A stretch of DNA of 64,000 bases, from contig NC_080702.1 in assembly GCF_030445035.2 (NCBI RefSeq), positions 11,974,029 to 12,038,028 on the forward strand. Reading direction: 5' to 3'. This DNA comes from Dasypus novemcinctus. Taxonomy: Eukaryota > Chordata > Mammalia > Cingulata > Dasypodidae. The translations under genes were made by a program, and so were the position numbers. Under the pieces are notes generated by a model, which saw only the letters and a list, made by a program, of their open reading frames with translations, did not search any database and was not told where the DNA came from. Positions within the stretch are counted from its first letter, which is position 1. Every line of letters starts with the position of its first letter. Shown one piece after another: positions 46,713-58,689 of this stretch.

Positions 46713-46726
46713 ACAGGAGGAAGAAG

Positions 46727-46734
46727 CAAGATGG
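46727..46734 (+). promoter_or_regulatory. YY1-like site at L1 5' end
   Basis: CAAGATGG near the L1 start resembles the YY1 core that sets the RNA start in human L1 (CAAGATGGC); base 9 here is T. The same word is at 49782-49789 in unit 3 and, as CAAGATGGCGG, at 61565-61555 in the half-L1. Confidence 0.55.
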
Positions 46735-48789
46735 TCACTGAGTGAACTTGCCTTGTGGTCTCTCCTGGGAAGAGATGGCTGAGCGCAGCTGGAGGTTCAC
46801 CGAGGCAGGGCTTTTTTGGGATTTTTGCAGGGCAGGAAGTGTCTGGACATCGATTTGGTGGAAAGGTAATGGACAGGATTGGTCTATAAGATATAATTTG
46901 GGTTCTGTTGCATGGAGGTGAGGCCCGCACACGGGTTCCTCCCTCTTGGGGGTGGGGGGAGCCGCGGTGCCTTGCAGCAGCTCAGCTTTCTGGTGACTCT
47001 GCAGTACTGGGGAGTTCGCGAGTCCTGGGTGGGCTGTTGGCGGGTTGATGCGACGGGTCGCCTTTGCGGATCGATTTGGGGAGATAGATGGTGTTTTGTT
47101 GTGAAGCGGGGGAAATTTTTGATTGCGGACACAAATAATAGCATTTCCACCTGAAGCCCCACCCCCACAAGCCCGGCTGCCGATCTGCAACCGAATTACT
47201 CTGTAGGCAGTAAAGGGACATAATTGGGAAGTTGTTTCAGGGTGCGGCGAGGGAGGGGGACACGTCTGGAAGCCGATTAGGGAATATTTTGTGAAGCTTG
47301 GGAATTCTGGTTTTGGAATCTGTTTCTGGCATCAGGGGCCGGGCTTCGGATCTCTGCCAGTAAAGTGGCTGAGGTGTAAAGGCGCCCACAAGTGGCAGTG
47401 CTGTGGAAGCACAGGGTGGGAGCTGTCCAAAAGCTGAAGTGACGATATACCCACATTAATGAGCCCTACTAAGTAAGTGAATTGCAGGGTTCAGTCACAA
47501 TATAGAGTTTGCGGATCTGACTTCCCCCATAAGGCTGGCACCCAGCTGTGGGGATCCCTGCGGGCTGTGTTACACTACGGGGCTCCTAGGCATCCTGTTG
47601 ACCAGATTGGAGGTTGCCAGGTCTGAATTCCCTAAACTCTGGTGGCCCACACCACAAAGACTCACACCTCTTGAGTCTTTAATATCTCAGACTTTCCACC
47701 CCTGAATCCATCACACCCTGAGGTCCATCTGAGGTCCTTGAATGCCCTAGCCTTCAACGTTGGCATTTTTTCTTTATCGTTTCATTTTCTTTTGTTTTTA
47801 TTTTCATTTTGTCTTATTTTTTACTTTTTTTAATGTCCTGATTGCTAACACCACATTATCCCCTAGTCTTTTCTCACAGCGTATCCCACAAAGTCTTTTT
47901 TTTTATTCAGTTATTTAGGGTTTTTTTTGTGGTTGTTGTTGTGTAGTTGTTGTTTTAATTGTGTTTCATGTATATCTGTTCTTTTTTTCTTTCCCCTACC
48001 TATTCCCCACCCTTTGCCCACCTACTTTACCTTTCTTCCTTTCTTCTCTTCCCCCCTTTTTTAATTTTTTTAATTTTTTTTCTTTTTCTGTTTTCTCTCT
48101 CTCGTGTCCCTCATCTTCTACTTATTTTATTTTAATTCAATTATACAATAGGTGCGGCAGGAAACACCTCACATTTCCTGGGGTTTTCTCATCCTCTACT
48201 GCCTCATTTCTGTATGAACTTTAGGCTAACTACACTATACTCTTTCCCCTACATCTTGATATCTGCCATCATCTACTGTCTCTCCTATATTCCACCTCCC
48301 ACCTCCCTTTCTTTAATCCATGAAGTGTCTAAGTCTTAATTTCTAATACATTTGTGTTGTTTTCTGTCTATTATCCACTCTTGAAACTATTACCTTTCTT
48401 TTCTTTTTCCCTCTCTTGAAAACAATAGCTTTTTACTCATGCCATATTCCTCCCATATTCAATCATCTACCTCATAATAGGTACTCTACCTACTGCTATA
48501 ACTCTACACAATTTACATGAATCGAACCTCCATCCTCCCAGATCTCATATTCTTGCTTTGTTAACATTTATCACCAATACTACTTTACACTTTTCCTTGC
48601 TTACACAATTGCCTTTCCCTAGCACTAATACTTTCCTTTAAAGTGAACTTAACCAACAACAAGAAATTAGAATAAGAAGAACAAAGTGACAAAGAGAAGA
48701 TATAACACTTATGCAAAAACAACAGCTAATTAATCTCCAAGAGTAGACAAAGAAGCTAAGGAACTCATTAAATCCGTCAAGATTAAATA
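46735..48789 (+). promoter_or_regulatory. L1 5'UTR and internal promoter region
   Basis: The first part (46735-47640) is GC-rich; the second (about 47760-48640) is strongly pyrimidine-rich on the plus strand. It contains a candidate intron of 1,778 bp (46866-48643). ORF1 starts at 48790. Confidence 0.8.
46866..48643 (+). other. Cryptic GT-AG intron in L1 5'UTR
   Basis: Donor GGAAAG|GTAATG at 46866; acceptor TTTCCTTTAAAG|TGAAC ending at 48643. There are branch-site candidates CTTAC (A at 48603) and CTAAT (about 48627), and a pyrimidine-rich stretch between them. Unit 3 lacks exactly this segment, its sequence reading GGTGGAAAG|TGAACTTAACC at 49912-49931. It is still present in unit 2. Confidence 0.9.
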
Positions 48790-49757
48790 ATGACCAGAAA
48801 GCAACAAAAATCTACAAACCAAACTAGTAATCAGGAAAACATGGCTGAATCCAATCAACAAACCAAAAATCAGGAAGGGGAGCAGAACTTTGCACAAGCA
48901 ATGAAAGATTTCAGAACATTTGTCACTGACAAATTTGATGAAGTAATGAAAGAGGTTAACAACATGAAGACATCACTTGGAGGGGAAATTGCAGACATAC
49001 GCAAAAACATAACAGATATGATGGGAATGAACACCACAGTTCAAGAAATCAAAAATACACTTGCAGCAAATATCAGCAGACTAGAAGAGACAGAGCAGAG
49101 AATTAGTGATGTGGAAGACAGTACATCAGAAATCAAACAGATAGTAGAAGGGGTCGATAAGAAGATAGAAAAAATCCAATTAGGATTTAGGGACCTGAAT
49201 GACAATGCAAAACGCTCAAACATACGTATTATAGGCATTCCAGAAGGCGAAGAGAAGGGAAAGGGGTCAGAAGGAGTGTTGCAGGAAATAATGAATGAAA
49301 ACTTCCCAAATCTACTGAAAGAGACAGATGTACATATCCAAGAAGCACAGTGCAATCCACTAGTCATAAACCCCAACAGGCCCACCCCAAGACATATACT
49401 TGTCATATTATCCAATGCTCAAGACAAAGAGAAAATCCTAAAAGCAGCAAGAGAAAAGAAAACCATCACATACAAGGGAAGCTCAATTAGATTAAGTGCT
49501 GATTTCTCATCTGAAACCATGGAGGCAAGAAGGCAGTGGTATGATATAGTCAAGATACTAAAGGAAAAAAATTTCCAACGAAGAATACTCTATCCAGCTA
49601 AACTAGCATTCAAACATGATGGAGAGTTCAAAATATTCGAGACAAACAGAAACTGAAAGAGTATACCAACAAGAAACCTCCCCTTCAAGAAATTCTAAAG
49701 GGAGTTCTGCAGGAAGAAAGGAAAAAACAGGAAAGGCAGAGTTGGAGGAGAGTATAA
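48790..49757 (+). pseudogene. L1 ORF1 with a frameshift near its end
   Basis: The frame reads as ORF1p from the ATG at 48790, with the coiled-coil part (about codons 50-150), the RNA-recognition part with NIRIIGIPEG (about codons 145-160) and most of the C-terminal domain. Relative to unit 3, one base is missing in 'attcgagac' (about 49636), giving a TGA at 49654. The original stop is at 49755-49757. The protein would thus lose about the last 33 residues. It is about as well kept as unit 3 otherwise. Confidence 0.93.
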
Positions 49758-49920
49758 GACCAACAACAGGTACAGTGGAGGCAAGATGGTCGCTGAGTGA
49801 ACTTGCCTTTGCGGTAGGTCCCGGGAGGAGACGGTTGGGCGTGGCTGCAGGCTCTCCAAAGCCGGGCTTTTTCGGGATTTTTGCAGGGCAGAAGTGCCTG
49901 GACATCGATTGGGTGGAAAG

Positions 49921-50066
49921 TGAACTTAACCAACAACAAGAAACTAGAATAAGAAGAAAAAAGTGACAAAGAGAAGATATAACACCTATGCGAAAATAAC
50001 AGCTAATTAACCTCCAAGAGCAGACAAAGAAGCTAAGGAACTGATTAAATCCGTCAAGATAAAGAG
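49921..50066 (+). promoter_or_regulatory. Shortened L1 5'UTR, post-splice part
   Basis: Bases 49921-50066 align with 48644-48789 of unit 2, and 49769-49920 with 46713-46865. The break between the two is the splice join at 49920/49921. Confidence 0.9.
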
Positions 50067-51035
50067 ATGACCAGAAAGCAACAAAAATCTACAAACCAAA
50101 CCAGTAATCAGGAAAACATGGCTGAATCCAATCAACAAACCAATAATCACGAAGGGGAGCAAAACTTGGCACAAGCAATGAAAGATCTCAGAACATTTAT
50201 CACCGACAAATTTGACGAAGTAATGAAAGAGGTTAACAACATGAAGACATCACTTGGAGGGGAAATTGAAGACATACGCAAAAACATAACAGATATGATG
50301 GGAATGAACACCACAGTTCAAGAAATCAAAAATACACTTGCAGCAAATATCAGCAGACTAGAAGAGACAGAGCAGAGAATTAGTGATGTCGAAGACAGTA
50401 CTTCAGAAATCAAACAGATAGTAGAAGGGGTCAATAAGAAGATAGAAAAAATCCAATTAGGATTTAGGGACCTGAATGACAATGCAAAACACTCAAACAT
50501 ACGTATTATAGGCATTCCAGAAGGTGAAGAGAAGGGAAAGGGGTCAGAAGGAATGCTGCAGGAAATAATGGCTGAAAACTTCCCAAATCTACTGAAAGAG
50601 ACAGATGTACATATACAAGAAGCACAGCACACTCCACAAGTCATAAACCCCAACAGGCCCACCCCAAGACATATACTTGTCAAATTATCCAATGCTCAAG
50701 ACAAAGAGAAAATCCTAAAAGCAGCAAGAGAAAAGAAAACCATCACATACAAGGGAAGCTCAATTAGATTAACTGCTGATTTCTCTTCTGAAACCATGGA
50801 GGCAAGAAGGCAGTGGTATGATATAGTCAAGGTACTAAAGGAAAGAAATTTCCAACCAAGAATACTCTATCTAGCAAAATTAGCATTCAAACATGATGGA
50901 GAGTTCAAAATATTCGCAGACAAACAGAAACTGAAAGAGTATACCAACAAGAAACCTCCCCTTCAAGAAATTCTAAAGGGAGTTCTACAGGAAGAAAGGA
51001 AAAAACAGGAAAGGCAGAGTTGGAGGAGAGTATAA
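50067..51035 (+). CDS. ORF1: L1 ORF1 protein (RNA-binding chaperone), intact
   Basis: ORF1p binds L1 RNA as trimers and forms the retrotransposition RNP with ORF2p. The 322-residue frame is near the usual length (human 338). A Met-rich, coiled-coil-like segment runs about residues 50-150 (heptads such as MNTTVQEIKNTLAANISRLEE). An RNA-recognition-type motif follows with NIRIIGIPEGEEKG, then a C-terminal basic domain with IRLTADFSSETMEARRQ. The ATG at 50067 is the first in frame; unit 2 has the same start. A 73-nt spacer separates it from ORF2. No stop or shift is present, so it could be translated. Confidence 0.94.
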   Translation: MTRKQQKSTNQTSNQENMAESNQQTNNHEGEQNLAQAMKDLRTFITDKFDEVMKEVNNMKTSLGGEIEDIRKNITDMMGMNTTVQEIKNTLAANISRLEETEQRISDVEDSTSEIKQIVEGVNKKIEKIQLGFRDLNDNAKHSNIRIIGIPEGEEKGKGSEGMLQEIMAENFPNLLKETDVHIQEAQHTPQVINPNRPTPRHILVKLSNAQDKEKILKAAREKKTITYKGSSIRLTADFSSETMEARRQWYDIVKVLKERNFQPRILYLAKLAFKHDGEFKIFADKQKLKEYTNKKPPLQEILKGVLQEERKKQERQSWRRV

Positions 51036-51108
51036 GACCAACAACAATAACAAAAAAGACAAAAAAAATATACAAACAAAATATGACAAACACAAATCCA
51101 ATCAAAAT

Positions 51109-54100
51109 ATGGCTAGCACAAATAATTCCTTGACAGTAATAACACTGAATGTCAATGGATTAAACTCACCTATCAAAAGATTCAGACTGGGACATTGGAT
51201 AAGGAAATATGACCCATCCATATGCTGTCTACAAGAGACACATCTTAGACCCAGAGACGCATGGAGATTGAAAGTGAATGGCTGGAAAACAATCATACAA
51301 GCTAACAATAACCAAAAAAAGGCAGGAGTAGCTATATTAATATCAGACAAAATAGACTTTAAATGTGAAACAATTGTGAGAGACAAAGAAGGATACTACA
51401 TTTTAGTGAAAGGAAAAATCTGTCAAGAAGATCGAACAATCATAAATATCTATGCCCCTAACAAGGGTGCCTCTAAATACGTCAGGCAAATGCTGGAAAA
51501 ACTAAGTGAAAGAATAGATACATCTACAATTATAGTGGGAGATTTTAATACACCACTATCAACTCTGGACAGAACATCTCAAAAGAGAATCACCAAAGAA
51601 ACAAAACATCTGAATAGTATATTATAGGAGCTGGATCTAATAGATATATATAGATCGCTACACCCAAACACAGCAGGATATACATTTTTCTCAAGCGCAC
51701 ATGGATCATTCTCCAAGATAGATCATATGCTAGGCCACAAAGAAAGGCTGAACGAATTCAGAAAGATTGAAATCATACAAAACATTATCTCTGACCACAG
51801 TGGAGTCAAGCTGGAGATTTGCAAGGGACAGAAGCCCAGATTTCACACCACGATTTGGAAATTAAACAGCACACTCTTAGAAAAACAGTGGGTCAAAGAG
51901 GAAATCTCAAAAGAAATCAATCACTACCTTGAAACAAATGATAATGATAACACAACATACCAAAATTTATGGGATGCAGCAAAAGCAGTACTGAGAGGGA
52001 AGTTTATAGCCATAAATTCATATATCAAAAAAGAAGAAAGAGCAAAAATTGAAGAACTAACTGCACATTTGAAGGAATTAGAAAAACAACAACAAAGTAA
52101 CCCAACAGGAAGAAGAAGGAAGGAAATAACAAAGATAAGAGCAGAACTAAATGAAATAGAAAATAAGAAAGCACTTGAACAGATAAACAAGACCAAGAGC
52201 TGGTTTTTTGAGAAGATTAACAAAATTGACAAACCTTTTGCAACACTAACAAAGAAAAAAAGAGAGAAGATGCAAATACACAAAATAAGAAATGAGAAAG
52301 GCGATATCACCACTGACCCCACAGAAATAAAGACTATCATAAGAGGATATTTTGAAAAACTATATTCCAACAAAAATGACAATCTAGAGAAAATGGACAA
52401 ATTCCTAGAAACACATAAGAAGCCCATATTGACAAAAGAAGAAATTGATGATCTTAACAAACCAATCACAAGCAGAGAGATAGAATCAGTTATTAAAAAT
52501 CTCCCAACTAAGAAGAGCCCAGGGCCAGATGGCTTCACAGGTGAATTCTACAAAACATTCCGGAAAGAACTGACACCAATCCTGCTGAAACTATTCCAAA
52601 AAATCGAAACAGAAAGAACATTACCCAACTCCTTCTACGATGCCAACATTACCCTAGTACCAAAGCCAAACAAAGACATCACAAGAAAGGAAAATTACAG
52701 ACCAATTTCTCTAATGAATCTAGACGCAAAAATACTTAACAAAATACTTGCGAATCGTATTCAACAACACGTTAAACAAATTATACACCATGACCAAGTG
52801 AGATTCATTCCAAGTATGCAAGGATGGTTTAACATAAGAAAATTAATCAACGTAATACACCATATAAACAGATTGAAGGAAAAAAATCACATGATTATAT
52901 CTATTGATGCAGAAAAAGCATTTGACAAAATACAGCACCCTTTCTTGATAAAAACACTCCAAAAGATTGGAATACAAGGAAATTTTTTGAACATGATAAA
53001 GAGTATATATGAAAAACCTAAAGCCAATATTGTTTACAATGGAGAAATCCTAGACTCCTTCCCTCTAAACTCAGGAACAAGACAAGGATGCCCACTGTCT
53101 CTGCTCCTATTTAACATTGTCTTAGAAGTACTTGCTCGAGCACTGAGGCAAGAACCAGAAATAAAAGGCATTCAAATTGGAAAGGAAGAAGTCAAAATTT
53201 CATTATTTGCAGATGACATGATCCTATACATAGAAAACCCTGAGAGATCTACAACGAAGATTCTAGAACTCATAAATGAGTTTAGTAAAGTCGCAGGTTA
53301 TAAGATCAATGCGCAAAAATCAGTAGCATTTCTGTACACTAAAAATGAGCAAGATCAGGAGGAAATCAAGAAACAAATACCATTCACAATAGTAAATAAA
53401 AAAATCAAATACTTAGGAATAAATTTAACTAAAGAGGTAAAGAACTTATACACCGAGAACTATACAAGATTGTTCAAGGAAATCAAAGAAGACCTAAATA
53501 AATGGAAGACTATTCCTTGTTCATGGATAGGAAGACTGAATATTATTAAGATGTCTATCCTACCAAAACTGATCTACACATTCAATGCAATCCCAATAAA
53601 AATCAACACAGCCTTCTTTAAGGAACTAGAAAAACTAACTATGAAATTTATTTGGAAAGGAAAGAGACCCCGAATAGCCAAAGACATACTGAAAAAGAAA
53701 AACGAAATTGGAGGAATCACACTACCTGACTTCAAAACATACTACAAAGCTACGGTGGTGAAAACAGCATGGTATTGGCATAAGGAGAGACACAAAGACA
53801 AATGGATTCGAATTGAAAGCTCTGATATAGAACCTCACATATATAGCCACATAATATTTGATAAAGCCACCAAACCCTCTCAACTGGGAGAGAGTGACCT
53901 ATTCATCAAATGGTGTCTGGAGAACTGGATAGCCATATGTAGAAGAATGAAAGAGGATTACCATCTCACACCTTATACAAAGATCAACTCAAGATGGATC
54001 AAAGACCTAAATATAAGAGCCAAGACCATAAAGACCTTGGAAAGCAGTGTAGGGAAACATCTACAGGACCTTGTAATAGGAAATGGATTTATGAATATCT

Positions 54101-54927
54101 CACCAAAAGCACGAGCAGCAAAAGAACTAATAGATAAATGGGACTTCCTCAAAATTAAAGCCTTTTGCACCTCAAAGGAGTTTGTCGAGAAAGTAAAAAG
54201 GGAGCCCACACAATGGGAGAAAATATTTGGCAACCATATATCTGATAAGAAACTTATAACTTGCATATATAAAGAACTCCTATATCTTGAAAATAAAAAG
54301 ATAAACAACCCATTTAAAAAATGGGAAAAAGACTTAAACAGACACTTCTCCAAAGAAGAAATACAAATGGCAAAAAAGCACATGAAAAAATGTTCCAAAT
54401 CTCTAGCTATCAGGGAAATGCAAATCAAAACCACAATGAGATACCATCTTACACCCATAAGATTGGCAGCTATGAAAAAAACAGAAGAATACAAGTGCTG
54501 GAGAGGATGTGAAGAAAGGGGAACACTCATCCACTGCTGGTGGGAATGCAGAAGGATCCAACCATTCTGGAGGACAGTATGGCGGTTTCTCAAAAAACTA
54601 GCCATAGATTTGCCATATGACCCAGCAATACCACTGCTGGGTATATACCCAGCAGAACTGAAAACAAGGACGCAAACCGATATATGTACACCAATGTTCA
54701 TAGCAGCATTGTTCACTATTGCCAAAAGTTGGAATCAACCCAAATGCCCATCAACAGATGAGTGGATCAATAAAATGTGGTATATACACACAATGGAATA
54801 CTACTCGGCTGTAAGAACAAACACACTACAAACACATGTGATAACATGGATGAATCTTGAGAACCTTATGTTGAGTGAAGCAACCCAGACATTAAAGGAC
54901 AAATACTACATGACCTCAATGATTTGA
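51109..54927 (+). pseudogene. ORF2: L1 ORF2 (endonuclease and reverse transcriptase), one nonsense codon
   Basis: ORF2p nicks DNA with its N-terminal endonuclease and primes cDNA by its reverse transcriptase. The frame has 1,272 codons (human 1,275) and only one break: TAG at 51625-51627, codon 173, where unit 1 has GAG (Glu). Endonuclease residues N14 and E43 (QETH) lie at the human positions. Beyond the stop come the SKIDHMLGH and ISDHSG motifs, and the RT site Phe-Ala-Asp-Asp is at codons 700-703, at the human position. A C-terminal Cys/His motif, [18 protein letters not shown], is at about 54499-54555. The stop removes most of the endonuclease and all of the RT. A frame restarts at ATG 51727, but it lacks the endonuclease's first part. 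Confidence 0.95.
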
Positions 54928-55155
54928 AATAACCAAGCTGCCCTAGATAGCAAGAGACTGAACGATAGGCTTACAGGAAATCGGAGGGTGGAGGAAGGAT
55001 GTGAGCCGATTTCTGCAGGGGTGGAAATTAAGACGAGATGGTGGTAAGTATGAACACAAAGAAGAGGTAAAAGGGGGCAGGGGTTGCCTTTGGTTGGGGC
55101 TTTGCGGGTTTGAGGGAGGCTGGGGATGGGCGGATGGGTAACATCACCCAAAAGT

Positions 55156-55170
55156 GGGGGGAGGGAGGGG
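55156..55170 (+). other. G-rich polypurine tract, L1 3'UTR
   Basis: GGGGGGAGGGAGGGG-like, same place as 4254-4268 in unit 1. Confidence 0.65.
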
Positions 55171-56019
55171 TAGCATACGAACACAAGAGAGGGTCAGGTG
55201 TTGGTGGAGAGTAAAATGCCGAGAAAATCATATCAAAATATAATAAAGAGGGTTACCTGTTTAGAATGCTCGGAGGGGAGGGTCTGATGCAGGACGGGCT
55301 CCTGGGGAATGTCTAAATGCTCATTCTGCCAGAGTGGGTGACACCATGGGGTAGAAACCCAAGTAGTGAGAGTGGGGGTGGACCCACATCCTGGGGAGGA
55401 CTAATGCCATCAAATAGAGGGAACTGTATCCCTCAAAAGAAAGGGTGGCTCCCAGGGCATTGGGGCAGTTGAGCAAGTTAGACCCTGAACACTATTCCAT
55501 CTATATCTGGAAGGGGCTCCTCGGGAAACGGAGGTTGGCTGTCACTGTGGGCACCAAGGTGGAAGGGAAAATGGATGTTAAATGTGTGTAACCAAGGTAA
55601 ATGGGGGGTAAGAGAGGAGTTTCTTCAGAGTACACAAGGATGGATATAAAACATGTAATATTACACCATAACATATAGGAGATGACAGACTGATAATGTA
55701 AACCATAATGTAAAACATAGGATAACTAAGAATGTAAAAAACTGTGTATCCTAAATTATGCACCACAATGTAAGCACAGATGTCACCTTGTTTGAAAGCT
55801 ATTGTCTCATCCTCTGTACATTACGTTAAGTAAATATGATGTGAATAGGGTGTAAGAGTATGGCTTTGGAAGGGAAAGGTTTTGTGGTGGATGTATGGGA
55901 GTGCTGTATGCTATATATATGCATTGCTGTGGTCTAGGGCTCCTGTGAAGAGAAGCTCAATAATTAGGGGGGGGGAAAGATAGGATGTAGAATTTTTTCC
56001 AAGTCAACACGTATTCTTT

Positions 56020-56392
56020 TTTTTTTTTTTTAAAGATTTATTTATTTATTTAACTTCCCCCCCTCCCCTGGTTGTCTGTTCTTGGTGTCTATTTGCTGCG
56101 TCTTGTTTCTTTGTCCGCTTCTGTTGTCGTCAGCGGCATGGGAAGTGTGGGTGGCACCATTCATGGGCAGGCTGCACTTTCTTTTCACGCTGGGCGGCTT
56201 TCCTCACGGGTGCACTCCTTGCGCGTGGGGCTCCCTCACGCGGGGGACACCCTTGCGTGGCACAGCACTCCTTGCGCGCATCAGCACTGCGCATGACCAG
56301 CTCCACACGGGTCAAGGAGGCCCGGGATTTGAACCGTGGACCTCCCATATGGTAGACGGACGCCCTAACCACTGGGCCAAAGTCCATTTCCC
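56020..56392 (-). mobile_element. DAS-SINE inside L1 3'UTR, 10-bp TSD
   Basis: CGTATTCTTT lies at 56010-56019 and 56393-56402. On the minus strand it has the young DAS head GGGAAATGGACTTTGGCCCA and an A-rich tail. It inserted after unit 3 did, so it dates the L1 as older than this SINE. Confidence 0.96.
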
Positions 56393-57538
56393 CGTATTCT
56401 TTATATAACCTTTAAACCCATCGCTATATGCCATTTCCTAGTAAGGGACCCTGACATTATATTGGGCTTCAAATTTCAGGGAGTTCTGGATCACAGAGTG
56501 GTTCAACAAAGGCAATGGAGGAATACTGGTATGGGATACCATTGACAGGGGATATATGGCTGACAGGGAGCTGTACAGAACATATGTCCAGGGTGCATGG
56601 CAATGTTTGGATATACTCATAGTGGCAACAATTAAAAACCACAGCAGGGGGGGTACTGGGTTCCTGGCCAGGGGTGCTCTGTCGTGGTCCCTAGGGGAGC
56701 AGTGACAGTCTCCCAGGTGCAGCGGCAGGGACCGGGAGGGAGTGAGGGTTCAACAGTGAGCCCCTGATGCTAATGACTATGCTTGTGAGCTGATAAGCCT
56801 AAAATAAGAACAAGGCCTAGAGCAGCATTGTGCCTGGGAATTTCCTCCTGTCAGCAATCATGTTACTCAAATGTGGCCAGTCTCGAAGCCAAACTCAGCA
56901 TGTAAATGCAATGCCTTCTCCCCAGCGTGGGACATGACACCCGGGGATGAGCCTCCCTGGCACCAAGGGACCACTATCAACTACCAACTGATGATGCAAC
57001 TGGAAAATGACCTCATACGGAAGGTTCAACGTGGATCAGCAGAATATCCCTGTCTACATAAAATAACATGACTTTAAAATGCTGTTTGACCTAATGTAAA
57101 GGGGAAATGGAAAGGAGAAATGAGTTTATATGGCTACGAGTCTCTAAAAAAGAGTCTGGAGGCTGTCAGAAGGATTGCCCTTATGCACAACTGAGCAGAG
57201 TCTGAGAGACAGATAAAGCAGATACAACCCCCAGATATCGGTTCCTTCGAGGGCTAAAGAGACCCATGGGAGTTATGGTCATGGCCGATGGGGTTAACTA
57301 CCAGGTCAGATGGCCCCTCTTTGGAACTGGTGTTTATGTGTGATGAATCTGGACTCAGATGGGATCTCTCTTCATAAGACTTTCATGCTAATGTGCTGGA
57401 AGTGCAGTTAGTGACGGGGTTCAAGATATATTTATGCGATTTGAATCTCTGGACTGACAATGTGATAGCCAGGTCCTGAGCCTCAACAGACTCCAGCACC
57501 TACAATCTGACTTATTGGGCTCACCACACTCAGCTAAG

Positions 57539-57829
57539 ATGGAGTTGAAGAAGGACAACCACCACACCATGGAGCCTAGAGTGATTACAACTGAAAGTGG
57601 GAGGATTGCATCCAGCATCCATGTGGAATCTGAGCCTCCTCTTGACATAGAGGTGCAATGGACACAACCAATCCAATGTCCACATAGAAAAGGTGGCATT
57701 GGATTGAGAAAAGTGGACATGATGGCTGATGGGTATGGGGAAAGGCAGGAAGAGATGAGAGGTGGAGGCGTCTTTGGGACATGGAGCTGCCCTGGATGGT
57801 GCTTCAGGGGCAATCACCAGACATTGTAA
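57539..57829 (+). other. Candidate third ORF in L1 3'UTR, 96 codons
   Basis: ATG at 57539 to TAA at 57827-57829. The start residues are MELKKDNHHTMEP. Homologous frames: 43954-44244, complement of 8628-8918 (both open, same ends), complement of 27232-27522 (open, start lost), and 6273-6500 (shifted, ends early). It has no known domain. The antisense strand is also open (about 138 codons), so composition may explain some of it. Confidence 0.4.
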
Positions 57830-57968
57830 ATCCTCACAGGGCCCACTGGATGGAATGGGGGAGAGTATGGGCCATGATGTGGACCATTGACCATGAGGTG
57901 CAGACGTGCCCAAAGATGTACTTGCCAAATGCAATGGATATGTCATGATGATGGGAAGGAGTGTTGCT

Positions 57969-58005
57969 GGGGGGGGGGGGGGGAGGTGGGGTGGGGGTGG
58001 TAGGG
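57969..58005 (+). other. G-quadruplex-prone tract near L1 3' end
   Basis: The run G15-A-GG-T-GGGG-T-GGGGG-T-GG-TA-GGG is about 75-110 nt from the poly(A) tail. Equivalents exist at 6698-6736, 44383-44422 and on the minus strand at about 8457-8490, 16620-16655 and 27060-27095. Confidence 0.75.
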
Positions 58006-58689
58006 TTCAAAGGGACCTCATATATATATTTTTTTAATGTAATATTTTTACAAAATCAATAAAAAAATAAAATAAAATAAAACAATCATGTACATGTGCA
58101 GAATTCCCAAACAACACCCCTCCATCAACACACCGCAATGAGGTGTGTCATTTGCTACAGATACAATAATATCATCAGATTTTTACCATGTCCATAGTGT
58201 ACATTTGGCTCACATTTTCCATACTGCCTCAGTATCAACACAGTACATCTTTGCATAGATGCAAGAATAATATATTATTACTACTAACCACAGTCCATAG
58301 GTCACTCCAGTTCTTTTTTTCCATGCTTCTCCACATTCCCAACACCCTTCAGTAGGGATATACATTTGCTCTGGCTAACAAAGGACACTCTTGCATCTTT
58401 ACCATCAACCACAATTCTCATCCACCTCTTGGTTTACTGTGCTATCCAGTTCCTAGATTATTCTCTAACTTTCTGTCAATAGGCATTTACATAACTAGGC
58501 TACTATTTTCAGTCACATCCCCATTTATAAACTAGCTGTTACTCACTGTGTTTTACTATCCACTCTATACATTTCCATTCTTTTACAGTAAAGCTAATTA
58601 AAACTTCTACATACATTAAACATCAGTAGTCCACTCAGACCTCCTCCTATCTCCTTTAAAAATCCATCACCTATCACGAGGTCTTGAAG

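Follow-up and report, generated by a model that had tools for sequence, protein, structure and literature searches.

The question raised by this locus is whether an L1 element that lacks most of its 5′UTR was copied from a spliced L1 RNA. The window is the whole stretch of DNA that was analysed (C45:11974029-12038028 of Dasypus novemcinctus, 64,000 nt); the genome searches covered 3.61 Gb. Positions in the window refer to the + strand, and a slash marks a splice boundary or a join. Comparison of the window with itself gives two matching blocks that relate adjoining L1 units, named unit 2 and unit 3: 46723-46865 against 49778-49920 (83% identity) and 48640-49768 against 49917-51046 (95.8% identity). 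Between these blocks, unit 2 carries 1,778 bp that start with GT and end with AG (46866-48643) and unit 3 carries nothing. The initial annotation had claimed both the segment kept in unit 2 and its absence from unit 3; the self-comparison bears out both, with the two sides of unit 3 joined exactly at 49920/49921. AAAG ends both exon 1 and the segment, which leaves five possible placements of the join; GT...AG is obtained in one of them.

Unit 2 is a long form. Its exon 1, of A type, extends from the L1 5′ end to the putative splice donor (46713-46865; self-comparison and alignment). The presumed 5′UTR intron, retained here (46866-48643; comparison with unit 3 and with long and older copies), has the donor AAAG/GTAATG and the acceptor CTTTAAAG/TGAAC. 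It is followed by the exon 2 portion of the 5′UTR (48644-48789) and by an ORF1 that starts at 48790 and is shortened by a frameshift, with a stop at 49656 (48790-49768; reading frames and subfamily letters). The distances first reported stand: the L1 start lies about 153 nt from the donor, and the acceptor lies 146 nt from the ORF1 ATG. The junction between the units (49769-49777) consists of a few unmatched bases without poly(A) and is also present in the segmental duplicates L009 and L010. Unit 3 is a short form. It includes exon 1 (49778-49920; alignment), the putative spliced join GGTGGAAAG/TGAACTTAACC (49920-49921), the exon 2 portion of the 5′UTR (49921-50066), an open ORF1 (50067-51035; reading frames), the ORF2 region (51060-54927; reading frames) and a 3′UTR with an A-rich tail (54928-58080; self-comparison). 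The ORF2 frame is open except for one in-frame TAG (51625-51627). A SINE is inserted in the 3′UTR at about 56014-56406; the SINEs of the window resemble the DAS elements of armadillos.

The two splice sites are fair, not outstanding, by a simple position-weight score: over 46713-48790, the donor is the third of 105 GTs and the acceptor the tenth of 102 AGs. A GT scoring above the donor is located 52 nt downstream (46918). A branch-site candidate had been announced ahead of the acceptor, and the CTAAT at 48625-48629 matches yUnAy, the human branch consensus; the segment ends about 15 nt further on. The donor AAG/GTAA is found in 24 of the 24 long copies compared, and GTAA is kept at 51 of 53 long exon 1 ends (GT mutated in two). 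The acceptor AAAG/TGAAC is found in 40 of 40 copies, most of which were retrieved with probes containing the acceptor. The window opens with the 3′ part of an older L1, and L051 is the upstream part of that element. The last 40 nt of the intron are identical to L051 at 36 positions; adjacent 50-nt bins are 86-95% identical. Conservation of the acceptor does not clearly exceed that of its surroundings, and argues at most weakly for selection.

A young type B L1 (L022:2185-2738, minus strand; C36:6089421-6097492) is nested in a short-form L1. Its intron is mostly a GC-rich array (10.9 copies of a 51-bp monomer), with related repeats; donor and acceptor are kept despite the replaced interior. Mouse L1 has monomer promoters, which this 51-bp array recalls.

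Unit 2 had been proposed as the unspliced counterpart of unit 3, placed side by side with it. This pairing had to be abandoned: the 5′ part of unit 2 belongs to subfamily A, and unit 3 clusters with subfamily C long copies. Unit 2 is chimeric: its letters are A-type as far as 48939 and S/C-type from 49008 onwards, apart from an exception at 49156 and an undecided site at 49248 (alignment made without L022_S, L022_B and L051; reference groups made without unit 2, unit 3, L009 and L010). Of the 20 fetched short copies, only L009 and L010, both of which share the 5′ flank of the window, show the complete arrangement of units 2 and 3. At C45:8930299, the same flank is found with an L1 that runs from ORF1 straight into ORF2, without unit 3. 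This relative is A-type at the compared sites, and its downstream flank has no match to the window after 58085. The restriction to L009 and L010 and the relative at C45:8930299 rule out that units 2 and 3 are parent and product or result from one simple insertion. They adjoin in a rearranged, segmentally duplicated locus. An insertion with target deletion and recombination with a resident L1 would fit, and unit 2, with an ORF1 that turns S/C-type after about 49000, looks like a new L1 copy recombined with a resident one. Elsewhere in the genome, one A-type L1 is present at four places on different contigs, where the 5′ flanks are identical too (L031/L032, L033/L034, L039/L040 and L047/L048; C76, C48, C14 and C1), which probably reflects segmental duplication.

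The genome search proposed for the same join found it at at least 49 places, a lower bound in which segmental duplicates are counted. With a 72-nt probe crossing the join, the best 40 of 1,575 first-look candidates all cross it (97-100% identity); a second probe gave nine further places. Twenty further short copies were fetched from the 39 other places matched by the 72-nt probe. All 20 carry the join (up to two substitutions allowed) and the 16 aligned rows are identical there, so the join is not due to chance. Two duplicates and the three short copies whose exon 1 is truncated were left out of the alignment. The 5′-end region of L1 is reached by 17 of the 20 copies; L013, L017 and L024 are truncated inside exon 1. 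The flanks of the 20 copies differ, except within the duplicate groups L009/L010/window and L020/L021. Among the best 40 matches to an A-type exon 1 in short form, none reaches 97% identity; the best has 96%, and most are known C-type short copies.

The 1,575 candidates suggested that the short form could be the dominant one. This is ruled out by the frequency of the join after exon 1, which was counted with two exon 1 sequences. For the C-type exon 1, the best 40 of 1,197 candidates (37 fetched, three already known) include 37 long ends, one short (L014) and two with other joins. For the exon 1 of unit 3, the best 40 of 1,412 candidates include 35 long ends and five short (unit 3, its two duplicates, L012 and L021); the 16 fetched for this list are all long, two of them with a mutated GT. 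The lists share 19 places. A range of unrelated breakpoints, which the initial annotation set against splicing, is not what the resulting 61 best-match ends contain: 53 are long, six have the same join and two have other joins, both beginning exactly at the end of exon 1. Once both probe sequences themselves and both duplicates of unit 3 are removed, 57 ends remain (52 long, three short, two other). The share of short forms is roughly 5% (3/57) among the best matches to these two exon 1 sequences.

One of the two other joins leads from the same donor to the 3′UTR. In L108 (C34:26720769-26721130), exon 1 is followed by GGAGTTCTGG of the 3′UTR, and ORF1 and ORF2 are skipped. In the window, GGAGTTCTGG comes after TTTCAG, a putative acceptor whose AG is at 56478-56479 in the 3′UTR of unit 3 (TTTCAG/GGAGTTCTGG). 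The join GGAAAG/GGAGTTCTGG is found at three places (100, 92 and 91% identity); the remaining 37 of the best 40 matches cover only the 3′UTR half. The two other places are C43:24222020-24222138 and C28:16945774-16945889; their divergence suggests older events. In the second case, L113 (C24:73322194-73322555), exon 1 is joined to TAATACTTTCC, 18 nt upstream of the usual acceptor end, in the predicted branch-site region. This join is found at one place among the best 40 matches. It fits no known acceptor and has no AG; it may be either a deletion or the trace of a splicing intermediate.

Target-site duplications were sought in six short copies and in L108. Exact duplications are found in three of the five short copies with readable 3′ ends (L014, 18 nt; L027, 13-15 nt; L028, 11 nt); the 3′ end of L018 was not reached. 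L108 has a 14-nt duplication and an A-rich tail. Equally long duplications were obtained in shuffles in 0/2,000 cases for L108, 3/2,000 for L028 and 1/2,000 for L027 (the shuffle test covered these three elements, not L014). L015 has an imperfect duplication, identified by eye. None was seen in L016, and none was seen for unit 3.

A join shared by many insertions could have been inherited. One deletion or one splicing event would then have founded a short lineage that amplified itself, with the join shared by descent. A first tree of 36 rows, in which the long copies were A-type apart from one of B type, did unite all 21 short rows in a single clade, within which the B-type long copy also fell. 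Long copies with the exon 1 of the short copies (type C) do exist, and are near-identical to short copies in exon 2 and ORF1: with a probe made of the acceptor end and the exon 2 of unit 3, the best 40 matches have 98-99% identity, and the ten fetched are all of type C. Trees including them were built on exon 1, exon 2 and ORF1. In a tree of 60 rows (23 A, 21 S, 14 C, 1 B, 1 older), the short rows need eight changes, at least six of which are forced by well-supported branches. In a tree of 52 rows, made by dropping seven duplicate or near-identical rows and the truncated L022_S, a single clade of short rows is rejected (AU p = 3.7e-5). It is also rejected when the same 52 rows are compared over exon 2 and ORF1 only (AU p = 3.4e-4); only two changes are forced there, and the bootstrap is unsettled. 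In a tree of 41 rows (17 S, 17 C, 5 A, 1 B, 1 older; the same eight rows and 15 further A rows left out), there are nine changes, at least seven of them forced, and one short clade is again rejected (AU p = 3.5e-7).

In this last tree, the clade of unit 3 (100/96) includes six short and four long rows; the four added C copies, picked for an exon 1 like that of unit 3, fall in it. A separate clade for the six short rows that resemble unit 3 has AU p = 0.021. The short rows are scattered among the long ones. Two pairs of short rows persist (L017/L019 and L024/L027), so a little short-to-short spread may have occurred. With close long relatives in most subgroups as well, a single short lineage is very improbable, and a self-propagating short lineage was dropped as the whole explanation after the trees with C-type long copies. 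The trees strongly support repeated formation of short copies out of long elements, as opposed to inheritance from one short copy to the next.

Repeated origin could also be due to recurrent DNA deletion between the two AAAG repeats, without splicing. The microhomology at both edges of the segment is in line with such deletions. However, 4 nt of it fail to explain why the same two points, 1.8 kb apart, were reused, and the GT...AG fit is left unexplained. Furthermore, the same exon 1 end is joined to the CAG acceptor of the 3′UTR at three places, with only AG shared. Deletion is for these reasons as improbable as a single lineage.

L051 and the L1 upstream of L012 are both older elements, and both contain the segment between the same splice sites (about 80% and 77% identity over aligned bases; donor GAAG/GTAAC, acceptor AAAG/TGAAC), so the long form is ancestral. 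The initial annotation had named a reading opposed to its own, in which the promoter was originally short and a 1.8-kb insertion produced the long form. This is scarcely conceivable: nothing was found in its favour, and the long rows also root the tree.

The explanation retained is recurrent RNA splicing and retrotransposition (SpIRE formation) of the L1s of this genome, which very probably accounts for the short copies, unit 3 being one insertion among them. Transcripts of long, intron-bearing L1s would occasionally undergo splicing in the 5′UTR that links a donor at the end of exon 1 (about 142-153 nt) with the acceptor located 146 nt ahead of ORF1. ORF1 and ORF2 would remain in the shortened RNA, which would be copied to new sites by target-primed reverse transcription. 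Such events would have been repeated in successive C-type subgroups, from long copies very close to the short products. Use of this donor with the 3′UTR acceptor would be rarer and would give insertions without either ORF. Removal of the segment by RNA splicing is here deduced from DNA, and most short copies appear to have founded no lineages. The central proposal of the initial annotation, that unit 3 derives from a spliced and retrotransposed L1 RNA and that the 5′UTR is spliced in this L1 family, is upheld by a join that recurs on several branches, by near-identical long relatives, by target-site duplications and by a second acceptor.

A broader reading is rather doubtful. The donor would predate subfamilies A, B and C, and the intron would be a long-lived, maintained part of the L1 lineage and not splicing noise. 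Spliced RNAs, including those joining 5′UTR to 3′UTR without any ORF, would then be a regular output, and the latter would be mobilised as non-autonomous elements.

Human SpIREs, as described by Larson et al. 2018 (PMC5860796), are joined exactly at splice sites, carry poly(A) and have target-site duplications of about 6-25 bp; they are regarded as dead ends. The armadillo copies resemble human SpIRE97/622 and 97/790 in having a donor near the L1 start, a 5′UTR acceptor before ORF1 and an exact recurrent join, and resemble human intra-5′UTR SpIREs in their target-site duplications and A-rich tails (PMC5860796). The share is small in both cases and of the same order: 116/6,609 full-length copies (1.8%) for human SpIRE97/622, against 3/57 in the best-match sample considered here (PMC5860796). 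They differ from the human intra-5′UTR elements in their host and in the length of the intron (1.8 kb versus about 0.5-0.7 kb; PMC5860796). As for human SpIRE97/976 (PMC5860796), the 5′UTR donor is also used with a farther acceptor; unlike in this 5′UTR/ORF1 class, the farther acceptor is in the 3′UTR, and neither ORF is kept in L108 or at the two other places. A SpIRE that took over the RAP1GDS1 promoter is likewise a 5′UTR-deleted L1 that keeps its coding length; a host promoter rescued that one copy (PMC13174262).

The available parts of PMC5860796 and PMC13174262 name no species other than human for SpIREs, and that of PMC1764860 contains neither 'splic' nor 'UTR'. A search of titles and abstract beginnings, with most subscription journals and preprints outside its range, returned no literature on L1 5′UTR splicing in xenarthrans, armadillo or sloth. 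The mechanism is already known in human; the armadillo adds a solid case for SpIRE formation in a second L1 lineage, with recurrence and one further class of join.

The joins between 5′UTR and 3′UTR mean that RNAs without either ORF were also inserted. That a second L1 lineage follows the human plan, with a comparably low share of short forms, suggests that mammalian L1s recurrently undergo splicing near their start. With this second lineage, the reason why the splice sites are kept becomes testable by comparison.
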